NCBI GenBank assembly: GCA_027475525.1
Contig: JAMWFC010000117.1
Coordinates: 2,776,183-2,840,182 of the forward strand
Length of the DNA: 64,000 nucleotides
Direction of reading: 5' to 3'
Origin: Macrolepiota albuminosa
Taxonomy: Eukaryota; Basidiomycota; Agaricomycetes; Agaricales; Agaricaceae
Below the pieces are notes generated by a model, which saw only the letters and a list, made by a program, of their open reading frames with translations, was not told where the DNA came from and did no database searches. Shown piece by piece: positions 2,023-45,504 of this stretch (positions are counted from its first letter, which is position 1; each line of letters begins with the position of its first letter). The translations under genes and the position numbers were made by a program.

Positions 2023-2036
2023 AGACTACGCTACAC

Positions 2037-8071: not shown

Positions 8072-8190
8072 GTACATATCTCTGAGTTCTTGCTGCTCAA
8101 AACTCTTCTCCTTGACACAGTACCCCTTGATCCAGAAACCTTCCTCCTCACCCCCCTCTATCATTACTGCAGCCTCTCCTTGATCTGGAA

Positions 8191-9195: not shown

Positions 9196-9206
9196 CCTTG
9201 AGTTCT

Positions 9207-9719
9207 CTAAAAACCCTCCTGCTTCTGCTGGGGGCTCTTCTCATAAGTCTGACTCCTAGTAGTTATCAGACTTGCCACCAAGCTCTGCAGCTCCTCTATC
9301 TTCTTCTCCAAATCCTCTTTCTCCTTGGGCACTGCCTGCACATATGTAGACACACTAGGCACCACAGTGACTGGCTCTTCAACCCAACCATAGAAAGCAG
9401 CAGCCTTAGGATCCATGATAGCATTGACCCTTTCCTTGGGAGACACATTAGGTGGGCTCCTGGGAATGGGATCCCCAGAAGGTAGCCTAGGCCTGCCTTC
9501 AAAGAGGATGAGCTTGCCTTCTTGGACTTGAGTCTTGAGATATTCACAGTCATTGGTCCTGTGTCCCAACTCCCAACAGTGATAACAATTTATCCCAGCA
9601 GCTGAACTGTTGCCTCCTGGAAACTGAACAGTCTGCAAGGCCTGAGCAGGCATCCCCATCCTATTCTGCAGAACTCCCTGCACAGGAACCTGACTCTTTG
9701 CCTTCCACTCATTGTTCAT
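9207..9719 (-). pseudogene. Nucleocapsid (CCHC) segment of Gypsy element 1 gag
   Basis: This segment encodes one zinc knuckle, CYHCWELGHRTNDC (C-X2-C-X4-H-X4-C), typical of the nucleocapsid part of gag. A Pro-rich stretch and a heptad-like KKIEELQSLVASL follow. It is in a different frame from both the gag segment upstream and the protease segment downstream, so the ancestral gag-protease polyprotein carries two frame changes here. Neither junction overlaps a 77-bp duplication, so these look like genuine decay. Confidence 0.75.
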
Positions 9720-10668: not shown

Positions 10669-10808
10669 TGTTCTCTTTAGCTTTTCTGGGGTAGACCCTC
10701 TTGGTGCAAATGAAATCTTGTATTAAACTTTTTGATGTGAACCGGACTTGATGGTCCACAATAATGAACTTGATGTCAGTGTAACTTGTTGGTCACTTGC
10801 TAAACCAA

Positions 10809-10831: not shown

Positions 10832-11650
10832 TGTAGTACTTGGTGTGAGTATTACTGATAGTTCTGGGGCTTGCTGGTGTAGAGTATGACTCCTCAATTC
10901 ACACTGACTTGATGATGAACTTGATGTATTAATGTTTTGAGTTGCAAATCCTAATCTTCCGGAATGCAGAGGGTTCTCAACAAACTCCAGCCTAAGCAAT
11001 TCACTCCCTGGGAATCACTGAGCCTTTGCCTATCAATTGCCTGTCTATTTTCTACTAAACTTGGGCTATTTATACTGTTTTTCTGGTGCACAGACCACTA
11101 TCTACACATGACCCTTTGTTGTAAACTCCCCAACCTCTGGAACATGTTTGATAGTCCAATTTCCCTTTTGAGAGGCCTGTTTTGGTGCTACCAGTTCCAC
11201 CATTCAACTTCTTGATTCATCATTCTTCTGGATGTCTCTGATTGCCACTTCCCCATTTGCTTTTGATCCATCATTCTTCTGGATGTCTCTGATTGCCACT
11301 TCCCCATTTGCTTAAGCTCCATTTAGCATGTGCTTCCCTGCATTCCAGTTGTGTCATTGTCAGATCTGATCTTTGATCCAGATCACTACAATTTGATCCC
11401 ATTTTGTCACTCCTGCCAGCTCCCATGCTTCCCCTCCCCATTACAGTAGTTGGACTATTGTTGAGCTGATAGTTTGAGCTGGTCCCTGCCTATTGTTCTG
11501 TACATTTCTGTGTATTTATTGGGATGTTTTGGAGATATATTTTTGTTGAGACTGCTACCAGGAGGCTTACAGTTTTCAGCCCATGATTAAATGTTTATTT
11601 TGACTTCTGGTGCATGGTGTGTCTCTGACTGCTGGTACAGCGTCATATCA
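10832..11650 (-). repeat. 5' LTR of Gypsy element 1
   Basis: This 819-bp LTR on the minus strand starts TGATATGACGC and ends AAGTACTACA (TG...CA), directly before the primer-binding site. It matches the solo LTR at 7127-8071 with many point differences, which indicates age. A TATAAATA box lies on the minus strand near 11074-11067. A natural 51-bp duplication (11221 and 11272) is present and imperfect, unlike the exact 77-bp ones elsewhere. Confidence 0.8.
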
Positions 11651-13731
11651 CCAACAGAAGGTGTCACCATCAACATGAGGTACTAGCTGAGGGGTCCAAG
11701 AGGAGTCTACCCTGGCAACCACCAGTTGCCAAGGCTCAAGCCCAGCAACATCCTCCTTGTCTGACACTGCTTGCCAGGGGGCAGCAGGGCCAAAGCACAG
11801 CAGCATCTGCCAGGCTGGTTCTTCCATTGGCAGCTCCTCAGCTGCTCCCTCAATCTCTTGCTCCTCTGCCACCTCCTCGACCTCTTGCTTGTCTGTCACT
11901 TCACGCACCTCCAGATCCTTCTCCCCTGCCACATCTTTATTGTTGTCTGCCACTGCCATTCCTCCTGCTGTTTCCAGCAGAGTCTGCCCCACCAAGTCCT
12001 TCTCTGCTACCAGGGGAAACATTGCTGTGTTCCTGTCATTGTCAACTACTGGCAAGGAGGCCCCTCTCAGATGGATGGAGAACAGCAGCCGGCTAGGCCT
12101 GGCTTGGGGGTCGCAAGGAGGGAGACAGCTGGCAGCAAGCACATTCTCCAGCTCCTTCATTTCCCTGTTTTCAGAGGAGGAGGGAGGTGACAACACCCAT
12201 GCACATTTGGCCTTGCCCTTCCCCTTGGCAAGCAAAGGGACTTGTTGTTTTGAAGGGACCACCGTCCCTTGATGCTCACTGGCACCACAGTTACCGACTG
12301 TTTTGTTTTTGTCCCCTTGACATGTCAGCAGCGCCAGGGAACCCTTGCTGATCAGAGCCACGTCGCCAGCAGCCTGCTTCTTCCTCTCCCCCTTGACAAA
12401 CTCCCATGCTCTCTTGACCAAGACAGCACATTTGAAAGTGCGCTCCACTACCATGTCAGGAGCTCCTCTGTGCTCATGACTCTTAGCACCATCCAAAGTG
12501 CAAGCCCATTTCAGCGTCCTGCACTGATAGCAGGGCTGGCTACTAGTAGGGTACCAACACCCCTCTGGGTCGTTGTCAGCCCAGCACTTGTTGCACTACA
12601 GGAACATTAGCAAGCATGGTAGGGAAGACTGAAGTACTTACTGCTCCCTGAGAGTCCTTGAACTCCCGTCTTGCTGCCAAGCTTGCCGTCCTCTTGTCCT
12701 TCATCTCCAGCAAGACCACTCCCACTTCCATCCCCTCATCCAAGACCACCTCTTCCCGACGCAGCACCAGTGAATTCTTCAGCTCCGCATTACTGAAGAA
12801 TGTTTGCGTAGGTGCCTGTTAAGGTTGGTCAGTAAGGTCAATAACAGCTTAGGGCTCGCTTACCACATAGCAAGGAGCGGCAACTTTGCGAGACTTCAAA
12901 GCAGCCGTTAGTGATGCAGGACAGCGGTAAGGGATGTCAAAGCTCACCTTCTTCTTCAAAGCCTGGCCTGGCTTTACTGGGGAGCCCAGCCTACTAGCTG
13001 GCAGTGCTAGGCTCTGCATACTGCTGGCACAGGGAACTTTGCCAGAAGCCTCATCAGTGGACTTCTGCTTCTTAGCAACCAGTGCCTGTTCCCTGTCAAG
13101 CCTCTCCATCTCCTCTGCTAACTCCTTTACTTGCTCCTGCTCCTCCAGCACCTTCATAATCTCCCTAGCTTCACGGGAAGCCTCAGTCTGGGCAGCAACA
13201 AACTCCTCTTTCACTTGAAGATGCGCCAATGGTACCAGTACCTCTTGCTTGCTAAGGAGGGACAAGTCAGACCACAGCTAAGTCAGAAAACAGGGTCAAA
13301 AATACTCACTCAGTCATTGGTGCGCTTACTGTCATTGGCAAGGTGCCAGACAGAATATCCTCGAGCTTGTCCTCAATAGTAGGGATAGCTGGAGGCGCCT
13401 GGCAACTGGTCAGCTAGCGACATAGTAGGCACAAGTAAAGACTTATGAATTGAGAGAAGGGTGCTAGCCACTCAGCGCCAAGGTTATCAATATACTGGGC
13501 TCAACACCACTCCCAGACCTCGATTTCTCTGTCTCAGCCAATGCCAAGGACACGCACCTCGAGCCACTGCTCCAGCAACCTCATCATGGCCACCACCAGG
13601 TTTGCTGGCACTTCAGCGCCTATGTTCTTGATATGCTTGAGAAAGCGGTTAGCCTTCTCAATGTAGGTATGGGTGGCATCCTGAGCTTCACAGGACAGCA
13701 TGGGAGGCGGAGTTGGAAATTAAAAAGACAT
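11651..13731 (-). pseudogene. Decayed copy of the LTR-element zinc-cluster accessory gene
   Basis: This region is collinear with the six-exon minus-strand gene at 37784-39999 and has corresponding splice sites. The ATG (13731) is followed two codons later by TAA where the young copy has an Arg codon, and exon 1 carries another stop, so it is a pseudogene. The last exon (from 12595) is still open. It keeps all six cysteines of C-X2-C-X8-C-X8-C-X2-C-X6-C and a long Glu/Lys/Ala-rich tail. Many changes are Arg to His, Cys, Gln or Trp, as expected from CG to TG or CA transitions. The 3' end is cut by the LTR of Gypsy element 1 at 11650, whose first bases provide the stop. Before that cut it extends past the point where the young copy is fused to RNase H. 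Confidence 0.75.
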
Positions 13732-13898
13732 TTTTTTGAGCAGAGCGCCAGGAAGTTTCAGAAAAAGAGGTGAAGTCCCTATTCATACGCTAGGACTATA
13801 AGGAGATTGCAGCAGGCACATGGGCCACCAAGTTACAAACCAGTAATGGTAGCTATTTTTAGTGACTGGAGATAGTCAATTTTTCAGTTGGGGTGAGA

Positions 13899-14811
13899 TA
13901 ATAGGACCCCACACAGGCTAGGCACATCAATGGCAGGCTCAGCAGCAGTTCTGAACACTGGGCCGAACCTGGTGCACATAATTTAACCATTTTAGGCCTT
14001 ACCTGATGGCCATGCACGGCAAGCAACAGATCCTATTAGTGATAGCACTGGTGGCAGCTGGAATGACAGGCATCATGCCACCAGCCAACATTGACAGATA
14101 GCAGCAATCAATCAGCACGTGGCATGGCTAGCCAGCAACAGCGCTTATGGATTAGGTATAATGTCATTTACTCATGATGGATGGAGGGATGTTTACCCTG
14201 GCACCTGACACCTCTTGGCACCCCCTCTCAGACAAACAGACAGCTTGCTTGCTTCATTTCTCAACATTTAGTTTAATACAAGACATTTAATTATATTACT
14301 TATAGTTCACCGTACCTTGGCAACTCTTTGCTCCTTAGTGCCAGGGAACTTGTTTCTCACTATAAATACTTATCGTTGTTGCTAGCTACCACAGAATAGA
14401 GTACCCCGTTTACCTTGCTCAGTTCACCTTATGGTTCAGATTTCTTTCAGGCTGACTAAAGTTCTTGGTTGCCTAACTGTCTGGACACCTTTAGCCTGCT
14501 TGCTGCAATTACGCTTATGGAACTTACGTGCCTCACATCTATGGCAGGCACCTAGCAGCTTAGTTGCTGCTAAGCCTTTTATCTTCTTGCTGCCTCTCTT
14601 GCTGCACTCACGCCAAATTACCTTAGTTGCTTAGGCACCCTCCACTTAGCACATATCTCTTACCGACATCTCTTGCCAACTAAAACTTTATCTTTCTGAC
14701 TTGTTTTCTGGGACCTGCCTGGGACTCCCTCAAAACACTTAGCACACCCAACACATACAGGTCAGTAGCCATAAACCGTATCTGCTATTGACCAACTTTT
14801 GGGCATCATCA
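13899..14811 (+). repeat. Old LTR of the same family as the young Gypsy element
   Basis: It aligns with the 952-bp LTRs at 32301 and 40169 from start to end, finishing GGGCATCATCA. A polypurine-like CAGTTGGGGTGAGAT stands directly before it, matching CAGTTGGGGGGAGAT before the young 3' LTR. The spacing to the decayed accessory gene start (13731) equals that in the young element. It is therefore the 3' LTR of an old, otherwise lost element. CG sites of the young LTR are mostly TG or CA here, for example GCGCATCAACGG versus GCACATCAATGG. Confidence 0.75.
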
Positions 14812-29534: not shown

Positions 29535-29617
29535 GAAACGCTTCTTGATCCGACACCACTAACTGGCCGTGAAATTCCCACGGTTGAGAAGTGAGCAGGA
29601 GATATAGTGCAGTACAT

Positions 29618-31545
29618 ATGTACGGCGAGAGCGTTACAAAGAGACTTAGAGGGGGCCCACTCGGGCACCCGAGAGACCCAGACCCAGACATAAGCACCTC
29701 ACCATCGAGACCAGTTCTCGGGAGGCGCAAAAGGACTGATATCGAAGTATCTGATTTACAGGCCGAACAAGACCCGAACCCCCCCACGAACCCGAAGAAG
29801 CACCAAGGACCAGAAAGCGACATGGTGACGGACACGGAGATGGAGGACGAGACAACGACCACGGAAGCTGAAACTGTTGTTGTATACCAGCTGGAACAAC
29901 TGCGACGGGAGATGAAACGCTTCTCTGACCACCACGTGTGGGGGAACCGGGCTGTGGAAGCAGCCTATGCCATAGCGAAGAAGTTCATCCCGGAGCTGAT
30001 AAGCGCAGGTGAGAAGTCAATCGAGAACAAGAACCCTGATACCTCACGTGCACTACAGGAAACGGCAGAGCTAAGGGCCACGGTCAAAGACCTGGCCAAG
30101 ACAGTAAACAACTTGGTAAAACGACAGGAGACAGGAATGACAGGAAACAGAGAGGAACAAGGGAAACAGACAGCGGCGCAGGGGGCAAGGGCCGTTATGG
30201 CAGATGGACCGACATACCGACCAACAAAGGCCAACCCAATGCCGGCAAAGGCACCGACACAGCGCCACCAATACACCCCACGCTCCCCGAGGGATCAATA
30301 CCACCCGGCCAGACTAATCGTGATCCCAAGAGGCGCGAAGATAGACGCAAACCAACTGAATCCCCGTAGACTGGTCAACCTCATCAACGACCGCCTGGAA
30401 CAATCAGAGAACACCAAGCACCTACGAGTAGCGTCAGCACAATACAACCACAACCAAAACCTGATCATTATGATGCGAGAGGACCAGAAAGGAGAGGAAT
30501 TAAGACGACATGCGGAAGAATTCATTGACATATTCGGGGTACCGCCAAACACGATCGACATGCTAACAGACGACAGGAGATACAAGGTTAGAATCAATGG
30601 GGTGTGGACAGGAAGAGACGGGAGAGGAAACTACAACACACCAGAGGAACTGAAAGAAGAAATCGAAAGGTTTAACCCGATTATGTCCAAAGTTACGCTA
30701 ATGGGTCTACCCAGATGGATGCGTGCAGAGTCGGACATACAAACCAAGGAACATTCATCAATCGTATTAGAGTTCAGCAGAGAAGAAGACGCGCAGGCGC
30801 TAATTGCCACAAGATACGTAGCGATGTACACGAATTTCTGCGAGGTAGTATACCACGCGGATAGGCCCCCGGTACTGCAATGCAGTAAATGCTGGGCAAT
30901 CGGACACCACGTATCGCGCTGCAGGAGCAACACAAGATGCAGGATATGCGGGGGGGAACACGAAGAGAAAGACCACAAGGCGGCAGAGGTGATAGAAGTC
31001 GTTGAAAACGGAGAATGAAGGGAGGAAAGAGGAACGAGGTGCGTCAACTGCAAAGGAGATCATCCAGCAACGGACAGGAACTGCCCCGAGAGGAGACGTG
31101 CCCAGATGATAGCAAGGGAAAAGGATGGAACGTCAACGGATGGAGGCATATCAATAAGGAAGAGAAAAATGGCCAGGAAAAACACAGCCGGGCCGAACAT
31201 GGACAGAGTAGCAGAGGAGACCCGATCCGGAGCCTCTGGAGAGGGAGGACAAGGTAGTACGTATGGGAAGGACAATGACAGAACCAGCGCGACGCAACCT
31301 GGAAGGGGGAACGCCGAGAACGGTAAGAACACAAGCAGAAGCGGGAACAAGATGACAGAACCAGCGCGACGCAACCTGGAAGGGGGAACGCCGAGAACGG
31401 TAAGAACACAAGCAGAAGCGGGAACAAGAACATGGCTCTTGAGAACCTCCTGAACCACCAAGAGGAAGAAAGGTGGGACGAGATGGAAGTGGAAGAACAG
31501 ATAGATGAAGAAATGCAGACACTTGGTAACGTACAACAGTTATGA
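29618..31545 (+). pseudogene. LINE ORF1 (RNA-binding protein with CCHC knuckles), one in-frame TGA
   Basis: From ATG 29618 the frame encodes a charged N-terminus, a coiled region, an RRM-like middle (VTLMGLPRWM, SSIVLEFSREEDAQALI) and zinc knuckles CSKCWAIGHHVSRC, CRICGGEHEEKDH and CVNCKGDHPATDRNC. A TGA at 31016-31018 falls between the second and third knuckles. The frame continues beyond it, so it is a single nonsense change (CGA to TGA is plausible). A 77-bp duplication at 31275-31428 shifts the frame. With one copy removed, the ORF runs to MQTLGNVQQL and stops at 31543-31545, overlapping the ORF2 ATG in ATGA. ORF1 proteins bind LINE RNA to form the RNP. Confidence 0.8.
31275..31428. repeat. 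77-bp tandem duplication 4
   Basis: Copies at 31275-31351 and 31352-31428, in LINE ORF1. Removing one restores the ORF1 C-terminus and its ATGA overlap with ORF2. Confidence 0.9.
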
Positions 31546-31659
31546 AGACCAAACCGATCCACATTGCACAGCTGAATACCAACCGCAGCAACATGGTGTG
31601 CCACACCATGCTAAATACATTTATAGATAAGTTTGATATCATTCTCGTCACGGAACCGT
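31542..31659 (+). pseudogene. LINE ORF2, N-terminal piece (endonuclease start)
   Basis: This is the first 39 codons of ORF2, beginning MKTKPIHIAQLNTNRSN and ending IILVTEP. It is the start of an APE-type endonuclease, with the metal-binding Asn in LNTNRS and Glu in TEP. It is cut by a solo LTR after CCGT (31656-31659). The same four bases restart ORF2 at 41539 with WWGDIG. Removing the insertion gives EPWWGD in frame. Confidence 0.85.
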
Positions 31660-32300: not shown

Positions 32301-33252
32301 TGATAGGACCCCATACAGGTTAGGCGCATCAACGGCAGGCTCGGCACCGGCTCCGGAAACCTTGCCGCACTCGTTCCGAACTTAGCGCACGCGTTCTACC
32401 CATTTTAAGCCATTTCTGACGGCCGCGCACGGCAAGAAGCAGATCCAATCAATGATAGCGCCGACGGCAGCAAGAATGACAACTGACAGATGGCATCAGT
32501 CACTGACGACAGCGCTTAGCGAGAAGCTTGATGATCTATCAAAAACTGACGGACAGCTTGGCGTTTGACCTTGGCGTCTGACACCGCTTACCGTCTCGAT
32601 TTGGCGCCCAACGTCGCTTAGGTGTTCTGACAGACAGAAGGGTGATGGAGTGATGGTTTAGTACCGCGATCTGCCGCCTGGTGGCGCCAAGGGTCCTCAA
32701 AGGACGGTAGGGATCTGAAACCGTTGGAGCTACCCCTTTGAAATTTTCCAGTTTACCGCACTCTGGCGTCATTAGCCACTGGCGACGGCAAACTCATTGT
32801 AGTATAAAAGTACTTACCGACTTGTACATAGAAGAATAGCAGACGAATAGACCACAGTTTCCCCCACTTACTTCAGTCTCCCTTACGCTCAAGAGCTCAT
32901 TTACGCTACGGTCGGCAACGTCGAACTCATCGGCAGTTACAGACGTTCGCCAACACTCGACATACTCGCGCCTTGCAACTACGGCAGGCATTATCGACGC
33001 TTAGAACTTCGCTAAGCTTACCGTGCTCTTGCCGCTTCCCGTTGCCGTGTTCACTTACCGCATTTTCTTAAGCGCTTTACCTTAGCGCTTGACACTTGCC
33101 GACTCCGTTACCGACTTTTACCCTTTTTCACAGACGCGTTCTCTGGGACCTGCCCGGGACTCCTCAACACACTTATAGCGCGCCCAACGCACACTCTTGG
33201 TTAGGTAACACTTTAGCTACATTTGTTACTGACCAAACTTTGGGCGTCATCA
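32301..33252 (+). repeat. 5' LTR of Gypsy element 2
   Basis: This 952-bp LTR has TGATAGGACC...GTCATCA ends. It carries a TATAAAAG box at 32803-32810, likely the element's promoter. It is rich in CG dinucleotides and matches the 3' LTR at 40169-41120. Confidence 0.9.
32803..32810 (+). promoter_or_regulatory. TATA box in 5' LTR
   Basis: TATAAAAG lies in the middle of the LTR, where the U3/R boundary of an LTR promoter is expected. It is repeated in the 3' LTR near 40671. Placement is by motif only. Confidence 0.5.
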
Positions 33253-33255
33253 AAT

Positions 33256-33275
33256 TGGAGCCCACCGCGAGGGAT
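33256..33275 (+). promoter_or_regulatory. Primer-binding site of Gypsy element 2
   Basis: TGGAGCCCACCGCGAGGG starts three bases after the 5' LTR. Its first 13 bases equal those of Gypsy element 1's site. Confidence 0.75.
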
Positions 33276-33632
33276 CTCTAGGGCAGAATTCCGCCAGAAA
33301 CCCGTCTCCAGCGTAGGCGCCGCCTGCTAGACCAGTCGGCAGAAGGCATTGCTCCTTCCCACCCATCAACTCCACAACCACCTGGTGCCTTACCGGGTCT
33401 CTCTCTAGCCCAGGAACTACAGAACGCCACTGTAGACGCTTTTCCTGATCTCTTCCCGCACTCCCTCGATTATAGTGCCGACGACCCCTTAGCGTCGCCC
33501 TTTGCCGTACCACAGTCAATCACTCCCATTACTCCGCTAACGCCTCTTTCACAACTCATTTCTCTTACCCCGTCGCCAATTTCTAGAACTCCTTCCCCAC
33601 TACCGCTAACCGAACTCGCCAACACAGTCGCT

Positions 33633-35951
33633 ATGGAACAACAAGTTCAGCGCATGCCGCCACGCAACCACTTCTCGGCACCGAAATGGGACGAGACCAA
33701 GCCACGGGAGCTCTCCCAGTATTTCAAGGAGTTGGAGTATTTATTCAGAGACTGTAACATTACCGACCACACGCAGATGAAGGAGTACGCGGCAAGATAC
33801 GTATCGTACGACACGGCAGAGACGTGGACAGGTCTTACGGAGTTTGCCGCCTTTGTCCCTGCCGCACCGCCAGCTCCAGCTCAAGGCGCTTCGTATGAGG
33901 ACTGGAAGACGGCAGTTATCCAGCTGTACCCTGGCGCTGAGGAGGCTACCCGATACACGGTAAACGAGTTACAGAAACTAGTACAGGAATCTTTCGACAG
34001 TGGCACATCGTCGCTTGGCGCGTTCTCTACGTATTACCGCGAATTCCAGAAAGTCGCTAGGTGGCTTCTGCAGAACGGCAAGCTCTATATTAACGAGGAG
34101 CGTCGCCTATTTCAGCAGGGCATCCCGACTTCACTGTGGACGCGTATTGCTCGTCGCCTAGAGATAGTTCATCAGGCTCATCACCCAGACGAGCCCTATA
34201 ACGTTGCCGACGTCTTTGAAGCCGGTAAATGGGTTCTCAAGGGAACGGACACTGGCGTTGGACTGCAGCGCGCTAGGACGAGCCCACCCCCTGAGCGAAC
34301 TAACGGTATCATTCCCATCCCGCCTCCTGTTGCCGACTTCGTTAAGAAAGAGGAGCTCAATGCTGCTATTACCGCCGCTGTCGCTTCCGCGATGACACGT
34401 ATCGAAACTATGATTACCACCAACCTGACTGCTAACCGACCCGCTAACGTACCCGCACCTGGCCCTTGCCACTTCTGTGGGGAAATTGGCCACACCATGA
34501 CTAGAGGACGCTGCGCTACCCTCGAGAATTACGTTCGCCAAGGTAGAATTCGACGAGCTATCGACGGCAAGATAGTCCTCACCACTGGCGCCACCATCCC
34601 CAACTACCCAGACAAGAAGTCCTTCCAGGAGCGGGTAGATGAATGGCATAGGCGCAACCCAGGACAAATCGTTACCGGCACGCTATCTGGCAACGCTAAC
34701 CCCGACCCCGAACAGGCGACCCAACAGCAGATGATTCACGAGGTCCTACATTTCGACAGCGTTGGCGACCACCCTACTTTTTCGCGGGAAGAGCGTATCG
34801 CCAAGCTGCAGCAGGAATTAGATTCGCTAAAGAACCAGGTCTTTGATGGGGTTGAAGTTAAGCAGCCTAAACAACCTCTTAAAGGATACAAGCCGATGCC
34901 TCCCGCTAGCAAGTTACCGGCACCTGCTCCTGCCGCACCTCCTGCCACTGCCCCTGCTCCTGCTCCTGCCTCAGAACCATCGTCGTCCGCTACCGCTCCC
35001 GAACCGCCCTTGCCGCCTCTCCATCCCTACTCAGGGATTCCCGACCGTTATCACGCTCCCGCACAACGAAACTTTGCCGCTCCCGAGAAACGTCCTGAGG
35101 GTGGCTACCGACCTACTGCGCCAATATTCGATATCGAGAAATCCAACCACGTCTTTAACCGCATCATGAAAACCAATGTTACCTTATCAGTAGAAGAGCT
35201 TTGTAGTATTGCTCCCGACGTCCGCAACCAAGTCAAGACGGCAGTCACTCCTCGACGACCCTTGGCGACAGCCGTTGCCGAAGTTGATGAACTCGACGAC
35301 GCGCTTCCTGGTTTCTCTGTTACCATCGACCCTCCCGACACTGAAGACACTCTTGCCGACCCCATCGCTAACGCCACCTCTGTGGACCCAGTGGAGACCT
35401 ACCTTAGGTCAGTCGACCACGGCGAAGACCCAGCAATCCTTACCGTCGCCCAAGAATCACACGCTATCCGCTCGGTAGCGCTAACCGTAGACAACAAGCA
35501 CGAGGTAGAGGCAATCGTGGATAGCGGGTCTCAGATTATTTCTATGGCAGCAGAAGTCGCTAACGATCTAGGCCTCATTTACGACCCTACCGTTATACTA
35601 AACATGCAGAGCGCTAACGGTACGGTAGACAGATCCCTAGGCCTCGCCAAGAATGTGCCGTGCACCCTTGGCGACATTACGTTTTATCTTCAGATCCACA
35701 TTTTACGCTCCCCAGCATACGACTTATTACTCGGCAGACCTTTTGACGTCTTGGCACGATCAGTCGTCAAGACGGTTACCGACGAGGAAACGACCCTCAC
35801 AATTAGCGACCCCAATTCCGGAATCCGACGAACGGTGCCAACGTTCCCTAGGGGACAACGAAAAGGCGCCCGCGCTAAGCCCCCGGAGTTTACCGACCAG
35901 CACGCCAACGAGCCTCCCCACCGGTGTTTTCACAGACCATCGAGGAGGTGA
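33633..35951 (+). CDS. gag-pro: Gag-protease polyprotein of Gypsy element 2
   Basis: An uninterrupted 772-aa frame begins at ATG 33633. The capsid region (about residues 1-260) has SQYFKELEYLFRDC and YDTAETWTGL. The nucleocapsid knuckle is CHFCGEIGHTMTRGRC, a variant with six residues before the last Cys. A long Pro/Ala-rich linker follows (about 420-470). Retropepsin is near residues 625-720, with IVDSGSQIISM and LLGRPFDV. Gag assembles the particle and protease cleaves the polyprotein. The last 73 nt overlap the pol frame, which lies in the -1 frame, so pol is probably made by -1 frameshifting. No canonical X_XXY_YYZ heptamer is evident. Confidence 0.9.
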   Translation: MEQQVQRMPPRNHFSAPKWDETKPRELSQYFKELEYLFRDCNITDHTQMKEYAARYVSYDTAETWTGLTEFAAFVPAAPPAPAQGASYEDWKTAVIQLYPGAEEATRYTVNELQKLVQESFDSGTSSLGAFSTYYREFQKVARWLLQNGKLYINEERRLFQQGIPTSLWTRIARRLEIVHQAHHPDEPYNVADVFEAGKWVLKGTDTGVGLQRARTSPPPERTNGIIPIPPPVADFVKKEELNAAITAAVASAMTRIETMITTNLTANRPANVPAPGPCHFCGEIGHTMTRGRCATLENYVRQGRIRRAIDGKIVLTTGATIPNYPDKKSFQERVDEWHRRNPGQIVTGTLSGNANPDPEQATQQQMIHEVLHFDSVGDHPTFSREERIAKLQQELDSLKNQVFDGVEVKQPKQPLKGYKPMPPASKLPAPAPAAPPATAPAPAPASEPSSSATAPEPPLPPLHPYSGIPDRYHAPAQRNFAAPEKRPEGGYRPTAPIFDIEKSNHVFNRIMKTNVTLSVEELCSIAPDVRNQVKTAVTPRRPLATAVAEVDELDDALPGFSVTIDPPDTEDTLADPIANATSVDPVETYLRSVDHGEDPAILTVAQESHAIRSVALTVDNKHEVEAIVDSGSQIISMAAEVANDLGLIYDPTVILNMQSANGTVDRSLGLAKNVPCTLGDITFYLQIHILRSPAYDLLLGRPFDVLARSVVKTVTDEETTLTISDPNSGIRRTVPTFPRGQRKGARAKPPEFTDQHANEPPHRCFHRPSRR

Positions 35952-38023
35952 TTGGCGACGATCACGGAGATGTAGCGCTAACGCTGGAATTTGACCATTC
36001 AACTGGTCTTGTAACTGTTTTGTCTACTGCTTTTCTTGACCAAGACGTTTTAACTACTTTACCCACTACCGACGCAGAACCTTCCCAGAAAAACCAAAAT
36101 ATTACCGACTCCTCTCTTGCCTACTTGTACCTTACCGCTTCCGAGTCATTTCAAAATATAGCGTCTACCGATACTTATCTCACCACTCTCCCCGGAGCCT
36201 CGCCTCCTGCCGTTCTTGGACTTGCCGCTCCTCAGGCTACAGTTCCCCTTTCCACATCTGTGTATAACCAAGCTAACGCTCCCAAAAGGAAAGGGGTTCA
36301 AGTTAAAAAGAAATATAAGCCAGTTGCGCTTAAAACAAAACCCATCGCTACGCACTCTCCCGAGACTTTCAGAATCGAGCGCCAGATCATTGGCGACCCT
36401 CTTGCCGACATGCCGGCCTTATCACCGAATCCGCCACCCTTTCAGCCCACAGGACGTTTTACCGCAGAACGCCAGCAGCAGTTCGCCAAGGAGCACGACA
36501 CAGGATTTTTGACCAAAGATGAGTTGAACGTCCTTACCGATCTCGTCGCTAAGCAAGACAAAGCCTTCGCTTGGGAGGACTCAGAACGCGGCAGTCTACG
36601 TACAGATTTCTTCCCGCCTGTCGTCATCCCGACCATTCCTCACGTACCGTGGACTGAGCACAACCGACCGTTACCGCCTGGGATCGAAGCCGAGGTCTGC
36701 CAGATCATTAGGACCAAAATACAGGCTGGCGTTTACGAACCCTCCAATAGTTCTTACCGCTCTCGTTGGTTTTGTGTCCTCAAAAAGAACGGCAATCTAC
36801 GCATAGTTCACAGTCTCGAGCCGCTAAATAGAGTTACAATACGACACTCTGGCGTACCGCCTTTCCCTGACCACGTTGCCGAGTCCTTTGCCGGGCGCAT
36901 TTGTGGCGCCACCCTTGACCTTTACGTTGGCTACGACGAACGTCTGATACACCCTTCTTCCCGAGATCTCACCACATTTCAGACTCCGTTTGGCGCACTG
37001 CGCCTAGTCACCTTGCCGATGGGCTGGACAAACTCAGTCCCTATATTCCATGACGACATCACATTCATCCTCCAACCCGAGATACCGCACCATGTCCTTA
37101 GCTTCATTGATGACGTTGGCGTCAAAGGTCCCAAAGACTGGCGACTCGTTAACGGCTTACCGACGACCCATCCGGAGAACCCCAACATTCGCTTAGCGCT
37201 ATGGGAGTTTTTCTTGCTGCTCAATCGAGTTCTCCAACGTATGAAGTATAGCGGTGGCACCTTTAGCGGTCACAAGCTCCTTCTTTGTGCGCCAAGGTTC
37301 AAAATACTTGGTCACATCTGCACTCCCGGCGGTCGCATTCCCGACGAGTCTCGCTTAGCACTCTTGGAGCGCTGGGGTCCTTGCCGCGACTTATCTGAAG
37401 TTCGCGCCTTTCTTGGTACCGTTGGCGTTCTTAGAATATTCGTCAAGAACTTTGCCCATCGCGCACATGCCCTTAACCGACTCACCCGCGCTAACGAGCC
37501 CTTCGAATTTGGGCCAGACCAGGTCACTGCCCAACGCGACTTAGTAAAAGCTCTGCAGGACGCCAAGCCCCTAGTCCCCATCGATTATACCTCTGCCGAC
37601 CCTGTTATCTTGGCGGTGGACACCTCGTACATTGCCGTTGGCTACTTCTTGTGCCAATGCCTTAGCGACAATCGGAAACAGCGACGCTACAACCGCTTTG
37701 GGTCTATTACGCTAAACGACAGAGAGTCTCGCTACAGCCAGCCTAAACTAGAGCTCTATGGACTCTTCAAAGCCTTCCGGTCGCTAAAGATGTATTTGAT
37801 TGGCGTGCGGAACCTTATTGTTGAGGTCGACGCTAGGTACATCAAGGGCATGCTGCAGAATCCTGATATCCAGCCGTCCGCTAGCATGAACCGGTGGGTA
37901 GTCGCCATCCTCATGTTTCACTTTGAGTTGGTACACGTCAAGAGCTCTTTCCACGGACCAGATGGACTTTCTGGCGACCACGGGGTGCCTAGGCTCCAGG
38001 CCGGCAACGTCCTCGGGATCTGA
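35879..38023 (+). CDS. pol: Pol of Gypsy element 2: RT and RNase H only
   Basis: The frame opens after a stop at 35876-35878 and runs 714 codons with no ATG needed, as expected for a frameshifted pol. RT motifs include SSYRSRWFCVLKKNG, LVTLPMGWTNSVPIFHDD and FIDDVGVKG (catalytic FIDD). RNase H follows (LAVDTSYIAVGYF, ELYGLFKAF, VEVDARYIKGML) and ends FHGPDGLSG. Integrase should come next, but the frame stops 15 codons later, inside the 3' end of the opposite-strand accessory gene. RT-RNase H core motifs look intact. Confidence 0.9.
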   Translation, partial: APGVYRPARQRASPPVFSQTIEEVIGDDHGDVALTLEFDHSTGLVTVLSTAFLDQDVLTTLPTTDAEPSQKNQNITDSSLAYLYLTASESFQNIASTDTYLTTLPGASPPAVLGLAAPQATVPLSTSVYNQANAPKRKGVQVKKKYKPVALKTKPIATHSPETFRIERQIIGDPLADMPALSPNPPPFQPTGRFTAERQQQFAKEHDTGFLTKDELNVLTDLVAKQDKAFAWEDSERGSLRTDFFPPVVIPTIPHVPWTEHNRPLPPGIEAEVCQIIRTKIQAGVYEPSNSSYRSRWFCVLKKNGNLRIVHSLEPLNRVTIRHSGVPPFPDHVAESFAGRICGATLDLYVGYDERLIHPSSRDLTTFQTPFGALRLVTLPMGWTNSVPIFHDDITFILQPEIPHHVLSFIDDVGVKGPKDWRLVNGLPTTHPENPNIRLALWEFFLLLNRVLQRMKYSGGTFSGHKLLLCAPRFKILGHICTPGGRIPDESRLALLERWGPCRDLSEVRAFLGTVGVLRIFVKNFAHRAHALNRLTRANEPFEFGPDQVTAQRDLVKALQDAKPLVPIDYTSADPVILAVDTSYIAVGYFLCQCLSDNRKQRRYNRFGSITLNDRESRYSQPKLELYGLFKAFRSLKMYLIGVRNLIVEVDARYIKGMLQNPDIQPSASMNRWVVAILMFHFELVHVKSSFHGPDGLSGDHGVPRLQAGNVLGI

Positions 38024-39999
38024 CACCTCCCAGGGGGCAACGTTACCGTAAGGCGGTAGCCACCGCCACTGAGGCTCCTCCCGGGCGACTTCTGCCACTG
38101 CCTCCCCTTCTCCCTCTACTTCTGCCGCTACCGCCTCCTTGGCGGGGGCCTCCTCCTCGTCACCTTTGCGCTGGGTCGCCAAGGTCTCGTCTGGCTCCCC
38201 ATCTGCGTCCTCGTCGCCAGCCATTGCCGAGGGGCTCCCTTCGCCCCTTGGTATCGCCACTATCGGTCCCGCCTCCTGAGGCTCTTCCCTTGGCGGCGGG
38301 TCCATTACCGCGTCGTCCTCGTCAGCGGCCGGCAGAGAAGGCCCCCTCAGGTGAATGGGAGAGAGCAACTTACTTGGCCCAGCCTCCGAGTCCCTGACCG
38401 GTAGGCGACTGGCAGCAAGCGCCTTCTCCAGCTCCTCCATCTCCACGTCCTCGGGGGTAGGGGGAGGAGATTCTACTACCCGCGCACGTTTGGCCTTGCC
38501 CTTCCCCTTGGCGGGCGAAGGGACTTGTCGTTTTGAAGGGACCGTAGTCCCTTGGCGCTCTCCAGCGCCACGGTTGCCGACTGTTGCAGACTCGTCCCCT
38601 TGACGCGTCGGCAGCGCCAGGGAACTCTTACTAATCGTCGCCGCGTCGCCAGCGGCCTGCTTCTTCCTTTCCTCCTCAACGAACTCCCGCGCTCTCTTGA
38701 CCAAGACGGCACGCTTAAAGGTCCGCTCCACTACCGCGTCGGGAGCCCCACCGCGTTCACGACTCTTGGCGCCGTCCAAAGTGCAAGCTCGTTTTAGCGT
38801 CCCGCACCGGTAACAGGGCTGGCCACCGGTGGGGTACCAACACCCCTCTGGGTCGTTGTCGGCCCAGCACTTATCGCACTACAGAAGTGTTAACAGACGC
38901 GGTAAGAAGAGCTACAACACTTACCGCTCCTTGGGAGTCCTTGAACTCCCGTCTTGCCGCCGGACTTGCCGTCTTCTTGTCCTTCATCTCCGGCAAGACC
39001 ACCCCCGCCTCCATTCCTCCATCCAAAACCGCCTCATCTCGTCGTGCCACCAACAAACCCTTCAGCTCTGCGTCGCTAAAGGAAGTTTGCGTTGGCGCCT
39101 GTCAAATGGTTGGTTAGCAAGGAAAGTACCTTGGCGCAACGAACTTACCGTGTAACGAGGGGCGGCAGCCTTACGAGACTGAGAGTGGGATAAGCAGAAG
39201 TCGCCAGCGGTAAGAACCCTCAAACTTACCTTCTTTTTCAAAGTCTTGCCAGGCTTGACCGGAGAGCCCGATTTGCTTGCCGGCAGTGCTGGGCTCTGGG
39301 CACTACCGGCGCGGGAATCCTTCACATCAGACATCTGTCTCCTGGCAACTGGCGACTTCTCGCTAGCAACCAGGGACTCGCCAACGACCTCTCGCTCCTC
39401 CAACGCCTTGGTCCTCTCCTTGGCGTCACGGGAGGCCTCTTCTAGCACGCTCTCGCGAATTGCCGCCATCTCGGCGTCCACCTGCAAATTGGCAAGAGGC
39501 GCTAACACCTCTTGTTTGCTATGGGGAGACAGATCAGACCACAGCTAAGTTAGAAAGTACAGTTAGAGATACTCACTCAGGCGCTGGCGCGCTTACCGTC
39601 ATTGGCAAGGTGCCAGAGAGGATGTCCTCCAGTTCGTCCTCAATGGTTGGAACAGGAGGAGGCGCCTAGGAACCCAATCAGCTAGCGACACGGCAAGAAC
39701 TAGAAGCTACTTACAAATCGAGCATAGGGCGCTAGCCACTCTGCGCCACGATGATCCAGGTACCGCGACCGGCACCACTCCCGAACCTCGATTTCGCGAT
39801 CCCATCCCACGCCAAGAACGCGCACCTCCAGCCACCGCTCGTACAGCTTCATGACGGCAACCACCAAATTTACTGGCGCGTCCGCGCCAACGCCTTCGAT
39901 CCGCTTAAGAAAATTGTTCGCCTTTTCGATATAGGCCGAGGCGGCGTCTTGAGCCTCACGGGAGGGAACAGGTGGCGGAGTTGGAATGCGGAAAGACAT
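37784..39999 (-). CDS. Retrotransposon-borne zinc-cluster-like accessory protein (six exons, antisense)
   Basis: Six exons (39999-39715, 39665-39597, 39544-39230, 39178-39149, 39098-38925, 38878-37784) are separated by GT-AG introns of about 49-52 nt, all phase 0, giving 655 aa. Exon 1 encodes a helical region (EAQDAASAYIEKANNFLKRI). Exon 3 is a Glu-rich coiled segment and a Lys-rich SPVKPGKTLKKK. Exon 6 opens with a cysteine array, C-X2-C-X8-C-X8-C-X2-C-X6-C (CDKCWADNDPEGC, CYRCGTLKRAC), resembling but longer-spaced than a Zn2Cys6 cluster. A basic PAKGKGKAKRAR and a long acidic tail follow. The last 80 or so codons overlap pol antisense and may not be original. Function is unknown; a nuclear DNA- or chromatin-binding role is only inference. 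A mutated copy is at 11651-13731. Confidence 0.7.
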
Positions 40000-40156
40000 T
40001 TTATTTTAATTGAGCGCCAGGAAAAGATGGGGAGGAGAAACGAAGTCCACACTCATGCGCCAGGACTATAAACCAAATCTCAAGAACGCACGGGCCACTT
40101 GTCACAAAAACGGTAACGGTAGCCTTATTTGGTGACTGAGGACAGTCAATTTTTCA

Positions 40157-40168
40157 GTTGGGGGGAGA
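40157..40168 (+). promoter_or_regulatory. Polypurine tract of Gypsy element 2
   Basis: AGTTGGGGGGAGA lies directly before the 3' LTR, where plus-strand DNA priming starts. The same tract, slightly mutated, precedes the old LTR at 13899. Confidence 0.7.
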
Positions 40169-41120
40169 TGATAGGACCCCATACAGGTTAGGCGCATCAA
40201 CGGCAGGCTCGGCACCGGCTCCGGAAACCTTGCCGCACTCGTTCCGAACTTAGCGCACGCGTTCTACCCATTTTAAGCCATTTCTGACGGCCGCGCACGG
40301 CAAGAAGCAGATCCAATCAATGATAGCGCCGACGGCAGCAAGAATGACAACTGACAGATGGCATCAGTCACTGACGACAGCGCTTAGCGAGAAGCTTGAT
40401 GATCTATCAAAAACTGACGGACAGCTTGGCGTTTGACCTTGGCGTCTGACACCGCTTACCGTCTCGATTTGGCGCCCAACGTCGCTTAGGTGTTCTGACA
40501 GACAGAAGGGTGATGGAGTGATGGTTTAGTACCGCGATCTGCCGCCTGGTGGCGCCAAGGGTCCTCAAAGGACGGTAGGGATCTGAAACCGTTGGAGCTA
40601 CCCCTTTGAAATTTTCCAGTTTACCGCACTCTGGCGTCATTAGCCACTGGCGACGGCAAACTCATTGTAGTATAAAAGTACTTACCGACTTGTACATAGA
40701 AGAATAGCAGACGAATAGACCACAGTTTCCCCCACTTACTTCAGTCTCCCTTACGCTCAAGAGCTCATTTACGCTACGGTCGGCAACGTCGAACTCATCG
40801 GCAGTTACAGACGTTCGCCAACACTCGACATACTCGCGCCTTGCAACTACGGCAGGCATTATCGACGCTTAGAACTTCGCTAAGCTTACCGTGCTCTTGC
40901 CGCTTCCCGTTGCCGTGTTCACTTACCGCATTTTCTTAAGCGCTTTACCTTAGCGCTTGACACTTGCCGACTCCGTTACCGACTTTTACCCTTTTTCACA
41001 GACGCGTTCTCTGGGACCTGCCCGGGACTCCTCAACACACTTATAGCGCGCCCAACGCACACTCTTGGTTAGGTAACACTTTAGCTACATTTGTTACTGA
41101 CCAAACTTTGGGCGTCATCA
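40169..41120 (+). repeat. 3' LTR of Gypsy element 2
   Basis: This 952-bp copy is identical by eye to the 5' LTR at all lines compared (constant offset of 7868). A 77-bp duplication repeats its last 75 bases at 41123-41197. The opposite-strand accessory gene begins only 170 bp to its left, so that gene's promoter may lie in this LTR. Confidence 0.9.
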
Positions 41121-41199
41121 ACGCGCGCCCAACGCACACTCTTGGTTAGGTAACACTTTAGCTACATTTGTTACTGACCAAACTTTGGGCGTCATCAAC
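41046..41199. repeat. 77-bp tandem duplication 5
   Basis: Copies at 41046-41122 and 41123-41199, spanning the end of the 3' LTR and its target duplication. Confidence 0.9.
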
Positions 41200-41538
41200 G
41201 CCAAGCTGTCCGTCAGTTTTTGATAGATCATCAAGCTTCTCGCTAAGCGCTGTCGTCAGTGACTGATGCCATCTGTCAGTTGTCATTCTTGCTGCCGTTG
41301 GCGCTATCATTGATTGGATCTGCTTCTTGCCGTGCGCGGCCGTCAGAAATGGCTTAAAATGGGTAGAACGCGTGCGCTAAGTTCGGAACAAGTGCGGCAA
41401 GGTTTCCGGAGCCGGTGCCAAGCCTGCCGTTGATGCGCCTAACCTGTATAGGGTCCTATCAGGAACAAGTGCGGCAAGGTTTCCGGAGCCGGTGCCAAGC
41501 CTGCCGTTGATGCGCCTAACCTGTATAGGGTCCTATCA
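41198..41538 (-). repeat. Solo LTR in LINE ORF2, second part
   Basis: Continuation of the LTR interrupted at 32300. It starts at ACGC (41198-41201), the second copy of the Gypsy element 2 target site, and ends CCTATCA. It contains an exact 77-bp duplication (41385-41538). CCGT follows at 41539. Confidence 0.85.
41385..41538. repeat. 77-bp tandem duplication 6
   Basis: Copies at 41385-41461 and 41462-41538, at the end of the split solo LTR. Confidence 0.9.
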
Positions 41539-41542
41539 CCGT

Positions 41543-44500
41543 GGTGGGGAGACATTGGAAACGAACAGAAAGGTCCGGCAGCCCTGATGGCATGGACACC
41601 AATATTACCGACAGCAAAGATACCAGCAGACAAACGACCACGAGTCATGGCCTATGTGAAAAAAAGGCAGGACTTTGAAGTAACGTTGCGCTCAGATCTC
41701 GCGAGAGATTTGGACATACAAATACTTGATGTAACGCAAGCTAACTACCCAACAGTTACGATAGCAAACGTGTACAACCAACCCAAAGGCAGGGGCCCAA
41801 CACCACAGGAGGACGACGCCTCAATCAGACTGCGAGAGATTGACTTCCCGACAGAGAGGCCAGTCATTCTGAGTGGCGACTGGAACCAGCACCACCCAAT
41901 GTGGAGCAAAGGTGAACCACAACCAACAGAAAGAACACAGGCACTAGTCGAATGGATGCAAGAACACGACTTCACAATGTTGAACGAAAAAGGAGCGTGT
42001 ACGTACCACGAACATCGCAGAAGGGGGGCAACATCGGTACTGGACATCACGTGGGCAAACACGGAGGCAATGGCCCTGGATGCCACAAAGGAGTGGGCGG
42101 TCGATCCAGAACTAGCGTGTGGGTTGGACCACTTTGCCCTCAAGTGGACAATAGACCATGGTGTGTCAGAGGTACAAAACGTGACCGGGAGCCGATACAA
42201 CTTCAAGGAGACGAAACCAGAAGAGTGGAAGACGACATTCGAACTAGAGATGGATAAAGATGCGGAAAGGTGGGTGGCAGTCCAGGATTTGCAAGCTCAC
42301 CGATCCATAGAAGAACTCGACAAAGACGTGGAGTTAATAATGGAGGCAATGAAGGTAGCGACGGAGGAAAACGCAAGCCGAAGGAAACCATCGGACAAAG
42401 CCAGGCCGTGGTGGACTGAAGCACTGGGAGAGGCCAATGAGAAGAGGATGAGACTCCGAGAGAGTCAGAGGGCCCACATGACCAGATGGGGAGAGCAGAG
42501 CGACAAAATAAACAAGGAGATAAGGAAGGTTACTAACTATTTTCGAAGACTATACAGACATGAAAAGGCAAGATGGATAAACGACACGCTAGAGGAGGCA
42601 ACGCTGGAGAACATGTGGAGACTGAGAGGGTGGTCAAAGGGAGCGAGGAATTACCCGTCGCCAGCAATTAAAAGGAGAGATGGAACCACAGCAATAGAAC
42701 ATGAGGATAAGTGTGATGCGCTGCGTGAGACTCTCTTCAAACCGCCTCCAACACTCAAAAACAACGAGGTACCGGATCTAACGAGGAGACAGGACCACGA
42801 CCACGAACATGTGAAACTCACACGCGAGGAGGTGAGAGAGGCGATATACCGACACAGCGCAAAGAAGGCACCAGGGGTGAGTCAACAACCATTCAATACA
42901 GTTCGGTGGGCATGGGAAGCAGAAGGAGACACAATCTTCGCACTAATGCACCACTGCATTGAGAATGGTTACCACCCACGACTATGGAGACAGGCCGTAG
43001 CGGTGGCACTTCGGAAACCAGGCAAACCGGACTACTCAGAACCGAAAGCATACAGGCTGATACAGCTACTGGAATGCCTGGGAAAAGTGTTGGAAGGTAT
43101 AGTAGCCAAAAGGATAAGCTTCATGGTAGGCAAAGAAGATCTGGTACCGCCAACACAGTTCGGAGGCCGCCCAAGCAGCTCCACTAACGATGCGTTACTA
43201 ACACATATTGAGGATATCCAGGCCGCAAGGAACGATGGTAAGGTAACATCAATACTAACCTTTGATATCTCAGGTTTTTTCGATAACGTCAACCATGCAC
43301 GACTGTTAAGGGAACTGCGCCGAAAAGGGATCCCACTACCGCTCGTGAAATGGGTGTCTTCATTTCTCAGTGACAGGCAAGCGGCGGTTTGCCTAGACGG
43401 AACGAGAGGGGAGATGAAACCCGTTAAGAACGGCATTCCGCAGGGTTCACCGGTCTCACCAATACTGTCAATAGTGTATGGGAGTGAGATCCTGGAACTC
43501 ATGGAGAACAGACGGAAGAGACGAAAAGAGGACACGACGTTGCTAATGTACATAGATGACGGCACGCTCAGGACCGCCTCAAAGTCATTAGATACAAACG
43601 TCACGACACTTAGGCGGGATTTTATTTTCGTAAATGAATGGCTTACTAAAGTTGGACTCTCAACAGAACCAGAGAAGACAGGGCTAATGCATCACTCGTG
43701 GAAACAAGACAGAGGACACTCCCCAGCGATCAGACTACCCATGCCAGATGGGTCGGAAACGACCATCAGAGCAGGAGAAACGATACGCATCCTCGGTCTA
43801 CACATTGACAGAAAACTGACCTTTAATCAGCATGCACAAATAGTGGCTCAAAAGGCAAAGAAAGCAGTCGCGTGTACACGGATGCTGGCAAACACAATCC
43901 GGGGGATAAGCCAAAGCCAACTCAGGATGATGTACAGAGCTTGCGTTGCACCGATCATGACATATGCCAGCCCAATCTGGTGGACAGGTAAAAAGATACA
44001 TAGTAACAAGCTAACAAGGGTACAGAACGAGGCGCTCCGACACATGGCTGGAGCATTCAGAACAACCCCGATCAAGGCCCTAGAAGTTGACATGTCGATT
44101 CCACCAATCGAGATCACGATGAACATGACCCTAGGAAGCTACGCAAACAGACTACACAAGCTGAAAACATCCAACCCGGTGCTGGAGAGGCTACCTGAGG
44201 AATGGCGACAAGGTAAACCTGCGACTAACCCTCCACCATTCCAGCCCAGGACAGCAGTGAAGAGGAAGAAGCAAACGAAAATGACGCAACTCGAAAGGCT
44301 GGCGAGGAAAACGTACAATCCGGAGATGGGGGAGGTGATCAACCCATTCATTTCCCCACCGTGGCGAAGAACAGCGAAGGATTTCGACGGACGCCTAAAA
44401 ATCGTAGGTGCACCCAAGGGAAGCACCAAATCCGCCGAAGCCAAGAAACACAGAGAGAGAGTGAGTGATTACAGATACGACCCCGCCCGAATCTACGTCT

Positions 44501-45504
44501 ACTCCGATGGGTCGATGAAGGAGGAGGGACCGGAGACGACACTCAGAAACACAGGATGGGGGATAGTTGGATACCATCAGGGAAGAGAAATCTTCACAGG
44601 AAGAGGGGGCATGGGTCACAAAGCAGAGGTATACGACGCCGAGCTGGTCGGACTAACGCAGGCTGTGAAAGCCGCCACAGACTACGTGAAACGACATGAA
44701 CAGGTGAAACATGTACATATCTTCGCTGACAACACAGCAGCGGTCACATCGATATACGAGCCGAAGGTGACGCCAGGCCAACAACAGATGATCAGAACCA
44801 CGTATGCAGTAGACGAGTTTCTGGATAGGGATGAGGAGAGGACAGTCAGCATAGAGTGGTGCCCAGGCCATAAAGACGTGGAAGGGAACGAACGTGCAGA
44901 TCAAGAGGCAAAGCTAGGGTCGGGAATATGGACACGCGACTTCACAACAATGACGAACGCGAAGAGAAGCACGAAGGAGGTCGCCCTAGAGGAGTGGAAA
45001 AGGGACTGGCAGAAGGCGTCGACCACCGGAGGGTTCTCTATAGCGAACAAGATGCAACCAAGGTGGAAACCGAGGGAACATGTTACCCACACTCCGAGAG
45101 AGGTATTTGGTAGACTCACACAGTGTCGAACAAAACACGCTTTCATTGGTGAATACTACGCAAAATTCGTAACTGACGAATTAATAGGTTGCCCATGCGG
45201 AGAGAGATTCCAAACGAGGGAACACATAATACTACAATGCACAAGATACGAAGAGTACCGATACATACTAAGAGAGGCGGACGAGAGGATGGAACTGGGG
45301 ACGCTCCTGGGGACCAAGAAGGGGATTGAGGCGATGGTCAAGTTCCTAGGGAAGACCGGAGCGTTTACGAAGACAGGAACGAAAAGAGTACCGAAACCAA
45401 CACCGACGATCGAGGACGACGAAAACGAGGTGGACGAAGAAGACTGGTGGGGGAGGATGGAAGGGGACAGAGAGGCGGCGTACGGGTTGATAGAGGGCGA
45501 GTAG
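41543..45504 (+). CDS. LINE ORF2: endonuclease, reverse transcriptase, RNase H, zinc knuckle
   Basis: Together with 31542-31659 this makes a 1359-aa protein with no stop. The APE endonuclease continues (VTIANVYNQP, LSGDWNQHHPMW, SVLDITW, CGLDHFAL). The RT has the fingers and palm motifs QLLECLGKVLEGI, PPTQFGGRPSSST, FDISGFFDNVNH, NGIPQGSPVSPIL and the catalytic YIDDGTL. An RNase H domain follows (YVYSDGSMKEEG, AEVYDAELVGL, FADNTAA, CPGHKDVEGNERAD), then C-X-C-X7-H-X4-C near 45189-45240. This domain order fits the Tad clade of fungal LINEs. The protein nicks the target and primes cDNA synthesis there. Interrupted by insertion, it is not expressed from this copy as a whole. Confidence 0.9.

Follow-up and report, generated by a model that had tools for sequence, protein, structure and literature searches.

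A spliced antisense gene and a dense CpG-containing hexamer in a Gypsy retrotransposon family of Macrolepiota albuminosa: a possible system of self-recognition

The stretch analysed here (hereafter the window) comprises 64,000 nucleotides of the Macrolepiota albuminosa genome (G000:C110:2776183-2840182), and the whole assembly (100.1 Mb in 129 contigs) was searched for relatives of its features. The window contains a young Ty3/Gypsy retrotransposon at 32301..41120, with identical long terminal repeats (LTRs; 952 of 952 positions) and ACGC at both outer edges, which carries a gene on the opposite strand between pol and the 3' LTR. As the original prediction had proposed from the letters of the window, this gene has six exons, all in phase 0, and its exon-6 product includes the cysteine array C-X2-C-X8-C-X8-C-X2-C-X6-C; the five introns of 46-52 nt all read GTAAG..(T/C)AG, and the product is 655 aa long. 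Pfam matched the protease and RNase H of the window copy but not a reverse transcriptase (RT) in its pol, RT being assigned via similar proteins, some of them with PF00078; a named relative of pol is from Sphagnurus. The order of gag-protease, RT-RNase H and integrase between LTRs, by which Ty3/Gypsy elements are recognised, was found in sibling copies, the window copy itself lacking integrase.

Gene models were attempted for 26 copies, of which 18 were open over 650 aa, six were broken and two could not be modelled (L032 and an old copy in the window). In 23 of the 26 models, each of the five introns had its splice donor and acceptor, one donor lying 3 nt off. The gene is not a chance pattern, for the same splice sites and frame are found again in independent copies. 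The ratio of non-synonymous to synonymous substitution rates (dN/dS) between copies, set beforehand as a test, was below 1 throughout (0.07-0.20 in 45 of 45 pairs of ten representatives), with third codon positions changing most. In a set of 28 pairs it was 0.07-0.18 for the gene and 0.06-0.14 for pol, i.e., the conservation about equal to gag-pol that characterises an aORF-3R. Two protein searches of the genome gave 126 and 107 non-overlapping exon-6 places, thus at least 233, with 98 of the 126 and 83 of the 107 free of stops; as copies were picked by similarity to the queries, these intact shares, like the 18 of 26 above, are not genome averages. The gene was present in all 17 readable LTR pairs among 40 scored LTR candidates, and with 48 of 64 scored pol copies (45 listed on the 3' side, the window's own and two read directly), the remaining 16 giving no reading either way. 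Among 41 listed pol copies from two further Gypsy families, a listed gene place lies within 12 kb of just one, the window's own, and that gene is an older, separate copy beside which it inserted. Comparison of the copies shows that the gene is intact in many of them, has conserved sites for splicing, is subject to purifying selection and is widespread across the family, and the long association with the family and its LTR that had been predicted holds. That the frame is incidental and the antisense RNA alone matters is extremely unlikely in view of the constraint in every pair and the recurring splice sites, even if antisense RNAs can feed RNA silencing, as stated in the part of a review cited here (PMC7264820).

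The six broken copies (L014, L016, L020, L021, L023 and L025) each have at least one 77-bp duplication in their stretch, albeit not always in the gene. Eleven exact tandem duplications of this length occur in the window (at 1648, 1869, 3673, 31275, 41046, 41385, 54358, 54518, 56183, 57414 and 60543) and 49 more in the fetched loci of at least 5 kb; periods of 30 to 159 other than 77 account for a single repeat. The 77-bp duplications look like untrimmed k=77 assembly overlaps, which can give a false appearance of frameshifts, long introns or additional target-site duplications. The mark is absent between 32301 and 41045. Extra copies of the target-site duplication were discarded as not biological, 41121-41197 being part of a 77-bp tandem duplication, and the same artefact means that the identical LTRs may overstate the element's youth.

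The original prediction also held that the gene is carried in place of integrase. Pieces of the element were matched against twenty sibling loci of 10 kb (L009-L028), and all 20 of these loci have the same order of integrase similarity, antisense gene with its native C-terminal domain, a 169-bp region and LTR. RT-RNase H was seen in 18 of these stretches (L015 is interrupted by a further LTR, and the stretch of L023 stops short), and the antisense gene was open over 716-728 aa in 14. In L009, the pol frame runs uninterrupted through integrase and the antisense gene has a 720-aa product; 430 bp separate the stop codons of the two, which face each other. In the window copy, the end of RNase H runs directly into mid-exon 6. 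The junction is GGCGACCACGG, 11 nt that flank the missing ~2.5 kb on both sides in L009 and L012; pol stops about 16 codons beyond this junction, the native C-terminal domain of the antisense protein is deleted, and the exon-6 codons below ~37970 are antisense RNase H. Allowing up to 3 mismatches, the junction was found once in the genome, and the distance between LTR starts is 7.87 kb as against 10.2-12.0 kb in the other 16 pairs, which were read by hand. Because the junction is unique, the siblings retain integrase and the native gene end, and the LTR spacing is shorter, the window copy is a private deletion form, in which a single event removed integrase and the 3' end of the gene, perhaps by template switching during reverse transcription. 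The missing integrase and the abrupt pol-gene fusion are therefore real features of this copy, but of this copy only. Replacement of integrase by the gene as a family-defining trait, which the window copy taken alone would suggest, has practically no chance of being true given the 20 siblings and the single junction. Likewise, the idea that the deletion gave rise to a non-autonomous subfamily found no support, the junction being unique in the genome.

The gene family product is predicted to be a protein of ~720 aa with a helical N-terminal domain, a coiled coil, a C6 zinc-binding-like cluster, basic and acidic stretches and a C-terminal helix. In the structure model of one relative (P0001), a helical N-terminal domain is well predicted, accompanied by a long coiled coil and a helix at the C-terminus. 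The last four cysteines are invariant in 11 aligned relatives, and the first two are absent solely in P0003, the model of which is altered at that splice. A basic patch can be read by eye as a nuclear signal. Protein searches, each limited to scoring the roughly 8,000 candidates with the most words in common, found 15 relatives, all from Termitomyces and annotated as hypothetical; by these and the pol relative, the host is probably a lyophylloid mushroom. No Pfam domain was found in the exon-6 part or in a full-length sibling product, and the fold search with the structure model returned nothing (best E 0.96), a second model being too poor for searching. Many Zn2Cys6 proteins bind CGG. An assignment to the Zn2Cys6 transcription factors was rejected, with a Pfam match at E 1 in none of 13 members and an X8 spacing instead of C-X2-C-X6-C; DUF3716 matched weakly (best E 0.12) in two of the 13. 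Capture of a host gene was also considered: copies outside an element were not identified, the 15 Termitomyces relatives being compared at the protein level.

Three copies (L029-L031) differ from L009 mainly in the gene. Their gag-pol and the LTR start are mostly 86-99% identical to it in 250-nt bins (two bins at 81 and 84%), whereas the gene is only 61-87% identical. Between the groups (15 pairs), the synonymous divergence dS was 0.94-1.46 for the gene and 0.19-0.36 for pol; within the groups, dS of the gene was also higher, at 1.1-2.2 times that of pol. The gene tree groups L029-L031 with a support of 100/100, and the pol data reject this grouping (approximately unbiased test, p 0.010). In two mixed copies (L041 and L042), exons 1 and 6 belong to different types, and a more distant Gypsy (L037, integrase 70%) carries a further gene type, V. 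By these comparisons, the gene appears to move between near-identical backbones as a diverged cassette. An assembly chimera could also underlie this picture, and the assembly does have untrimmed 77-bp overlaps, one of them near the cassette edges in L031; L029 and L030, however, are free of such marks there. A type-V copy of the antisense gene without an upstream pol match was also seen (L036, contig C105), and the reading frames at 1567-3181 beside it resemble fragments of a KDZ-type transposase.

The second peculiarity of the element is a short word spread through its DNA. Ranked by enrichment, the first four 6-mers of the window element are CGGTAA, CGGCAA, CGCCAA and CGCTAA, which together make CGSYAA (S, G or C; Y, C or T). 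With both LTRs counted, it occurs at 157 sites in 8.8 kb versus 18.5 expected (135 without the 3' LTR), about one per 56 bp, and the same word read backwards at 16. Its density is 17.8/kb in the element, 1.2/kb in the host stretches of the window and 0.7/kb in a long interspersed nuclear element (LINE). Of the 16 one-letter alternatives, 15 stand at 0.39-1.76 of expectation and CGSYAG alone at 3.2. In 500 rounds of synonymous codon shuffling of ten coding sequences the observed count was never reached (z 6.8-16.8), the gag-protease frame, for example, having 45 motifs against a mean of 9.5; since shuffles never match the observed counts, this coat goes far beyond codon choice. The LTR is the densest of the long segments (23/kb), followed by gag, pol and exon 6 with 14-17/kb, and the introns hold ~26/kb when counted with a 5-nt overhang. 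Both strands are coated, including the antisense exons and introns, with a sense-strand bias in LTR and pol, and a same-strand RNA motif was rejected on this ground. Distances between motifs were most commonly 13 nt (10 of 134), as counted without a control.

The coat extends to the family: in L009-L031 and L040, CGSYAA stands at 4.1-8.4 times expectation, with the lowest values in L023 and the CpG-decayed L021, and the same four words lead in three of eight siblings checked. Diverged genes have 25-29 sites each, 26-44% of them at positions in common as against 6-30% for control 6-mers. A biased mutation or conversion process in the family, of which the coat would be a by-product, agrees with sites that turn over while the density stays constant. 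Such a process should, however, drain the one-letter neighbours, most of which are near expectation (though some are at 0.4-0.6), and the sites persist more than the control words, which makes this explanation very improbable. In a distant gene-bearing family another sharp word, GCGCTA, prevails (30 sites versus 4.1 expected, 7.3-fold), and because of this difference the coat can be linked to the gene. Rather doubtful in our view is the alternative in which the coat serves some other factor (a host protein, a Gag or integrase complex, or RNA packaging) and the antisense gene is unrelated. It would fit the sense-strand bias in LTR and pol and a word shared by gene types I-III despite proteins differing by up to 35%, and binding of the coat by the antisense protein is itself inferred; against it are the use of both strands, the coated antisense exons and introns and the change of word where the gene has diverged.

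The old gene copy at 11651-14811 is collinear with the young gene and mutated, and it adjoins an LTR of the same family, as had been noticed before. Its exon 1 has a stop at codon 4 (by eye), the first splice donor is lost, and exon 6 is open up to 11651, where an LTR-like repeat belonging to another element truncates it. The one-transition forms TGSYAA/CASYAA stand at 4.7 times expectation in this copy and the observed-to-expected CpG ratio (CpG o/e) is 0.25, for which reasons it probably once bore the CGSYAA coat and then lost CpG. The CpG o/e of the young element is 1.06 and that of the second gene-bearing family 1.14. In the two Gypsy families without the gene nearby, the pol frames are open in most of the 41 listed copies, and 1,201-nt pieces from one copy of each gave a CpG o/e of 0.08 and 0.03 with zero CGSYAA sites; the median for equally long stretches of the gene-bearing family is 19. 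Two observations would link the coat to CpG silencing, namely, the CpG decay of the old copy and the near absence of CpG in the families without the gene nearby. For the latter, CpG avoidance is possibly a way to tolerate methylation.

Quite possibly, and most economically, the antisense protein is part of a self-recognition system: it would bind the coat and thereby protect the element against CpG methylation and silencing, much as VANC protects the VANDAL transposons of Arabidopsis, both the binding and the anti-silencing effect being inferred by analogy. The gene would be transcribed from the shared 169-bp region or the LTR, away from the 3' LTR, and then spliced; its introns, lying backwards in the genomic RNA, would survive reverse transcription. 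The protein would enter the nucleus, bind the dense CGSYAA sites on the element DNA and block or reverse CpG methylation and silencing. Copies losing this protection would decay at CpG, and related families would carry diverged proteins together with other words. A transcription regulator of the ordinary kind, acting through the coat on the LTR or on chromatin like HBZ of human T-cell leukaemia virus type 1 (HTLV-1) or, as proposed, GENE23 of Grande, is an unlikely alternative. The spliceable antisense gene beside the 3' LTR, the peak of motif density in the LTR and the basic patch would all suit it, but gag, pol and the gene's own coding sequence are nearly as dense, which is of little use for promoter control, and the CpG contrast with the Gypsy families without the gene nearby does not fit it.

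Several observations weigh against a shielding role. The LINE in the window retains CpG (o/e 0.86) with neither gene nor coat, so CpG retention does not require the coat system, and the data on the CpG-poor families come from 1,201 nt of each and from their own copy in the window. CGSYAA is mildly raised (1.9-fold) in the distant gene-bearing family and GCGCTA 4-fold in the main one; the coding test of GCGCTA in the second family was weak (5 versus a mean of 1.2, equalled by the best shuffle), and this second word comes from one family with two near-identical copies. Gene types I-III, with an identity down to 65% overall, share one word. For the zinc array, no above-threshold Pfam match, PDB sequence match or fold match was found, and this region is poorly modelled in the predicted structures. 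Finally, the VANDAL motifs, as far as the cited part of their description goes, are mainly non-coding and often tandemly repeated, whereas CGSYAA is spread through coding sequence as well (PMC5735166).

Shielding by the antisense protein may be part of a broader system, which we propose more tentatively: the first retrotransposon module of self-recognition and anti-silencing, with a CpG-containing password through the element's own DNA, an intron-bearing antisense gene for its reader, exchange of the reader as a cassette, and joint drift of password and reader between families. If true, it would help to account for the persistence of an intact CpG-rich Gypsy family next to Gypsy families whose frames are open but nearly devoid of CpG. 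A sharp candidate DNA target next to the gene also makes the function of such proteins directly testable.

The positions of the features are given in Table 1. Within the shared region, window 40133-40168 contains the hairpin-like GACTGAGGACAGTC and the polypurine tract and recurs in L029-L032, L039 and L040; in the distant family, too, 36 nt of it are identical, which points to a conserved cis signal. The surroundings form a three-layer nest, in which a LINE-like element (29588-31610 and 41452-45504, with first open reading frames (ORFs) and a 1350-aa ORF) is split by an inverted LTR that in turn holds the young element. Another Gypsy occupies the left part of the window. A pair of LTR-like repeats (7357-8071 and 10972-11650, 90-95% identical) flanks its gag-protease ORFs, and its RT-integrase lies beyond the repeat at 10972-11650, an odd arrangement that is either nested or rearranged; a 268-aa ORF is found near its 3' side (773-1579, minus strand). 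Window 3994-10722, L046 and L047 represent the two CpG-poor Gypsy families, with 97-99% and 71-72% identity to the window's own copy of this Gypsy and a CpG o/e of 0.03-0.11.

Table 1. Features of the young element and of the old gene copy in the window.
Feature	Position	Strand	Remarks
5' LTR, 952 bp	32301..33252	+	22 CGSYAA/TTRSCG sites
gag-protease ORF: DUF4100, aspartyl protease	33282..35951	+	Pfam matches
pol ORF, shortened: RT-RNase H only; frame differs from gag	35879..38023	+	stop lies beyond deletion junction
Deletion junction, 11-nt microhomology GGCGACCACGG	37973..37983	.	~2.5 kb absent relative to siblings (integrase, spacer, gene 3' end)
Antisense gene exon 6: C6 zinc-binding-like array, basic patch, acidic stretch	37784..38878	-	
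Antisense gene exon 5	38925..39098	-	
Antisense gene exon 4	39149..39178	-	
Antisense gene exon 3	39230..39544	-	
Antisense gene exon 2	39597..39665	-	
Antisense gene exon 1, with start codon	39715..39999	-	helical domain predicted in relative P0001
Shared region, 169 bp: gene 5' flank (putative promoter, TTTATAG-like) and element polypurine tract	40000..40168	.	
3' LTR, identical to 5' LTR	40169..41120	+	
Coat: 157 CGSYAA (TTRSCG) sites across LTRs, coding and non-coding parts	32301..41120	.	
Old decayed antisense gene copy, cut at 11651, coat CpG-decayed	11648..13731	-	
LTR adjoining old gene copy, 59% to young LTR	13901..14811	+	

It had been suggested that the gene may represent an undescribed class, which holds only in part. 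HBZ of HTLV-1 is a spliced product and a bZIP protein of an animal retrovirus, and we know of no coat motif for it. According to the parts of two reviews cited here, HBZ is likewise an antisense regulator beside the 3' LTR, and Grande gene23, RIRE2, Retand TRP28, PvRetro13 and Boty brtn likewise lie antisense between pol and the 3' LTR (PMC7264820; PMC11963269). The known antisense ORFs also resemble the present gene in being present in most copies, in a constraint like that of other element proteins and in a suspected nuclear or DNA-binding role; no established function of such genes is given in the same parts (PMC7264820; PMC11963269). Boty brtn of Botrytis is a fungal case, compared by description alone from the cited portions of a review and three further papers (PMC8365987, PMC4227169, PMC5987419). 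Antisense accessory genes as such are thus known, but the present one differs from them: its six exons have splice sites that are conserved, its C6 zinc-binding-like product is unrelated to theirs, it is swapped as a cassette, and it sits in a densely coated element. The word "intron" is absent from the main texts of PMC7264820 and PMC11963269, and neither a spliced antisense gene nor a coat motif in a fungal LTR retrotransposon was found in the open-access literature searched; splicing, cassette exchange and motif coat look new. Fungal DNA transposons encoding TET/JBP proteins (e.g., Kyakuja) are likewise suspected of countering CpG methylation, but by catalytic oxidation of 5-methylcytosine, as described in the part cited (PMC12730594). 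The closest working analogue would be VANC, also an accessory protein encoded by its element, with a short motif dense in the element and rare elsewhere, and, in the cited part of that work, protein and motif diverge between VANDAL families (PMC5735166). A comparable enrichment is seen here between element and host stretches, and two families have two words, with one word shared by gene types I-III. VANDAL elements are Mutator-like DNA transposons and the present carrier is an LTR retrotransposon; binding and demethylation have been demonstrated for VANC, according to the same part of PMC5735166, and for the antisense protein of this Gypsy family they would follow by analogy.

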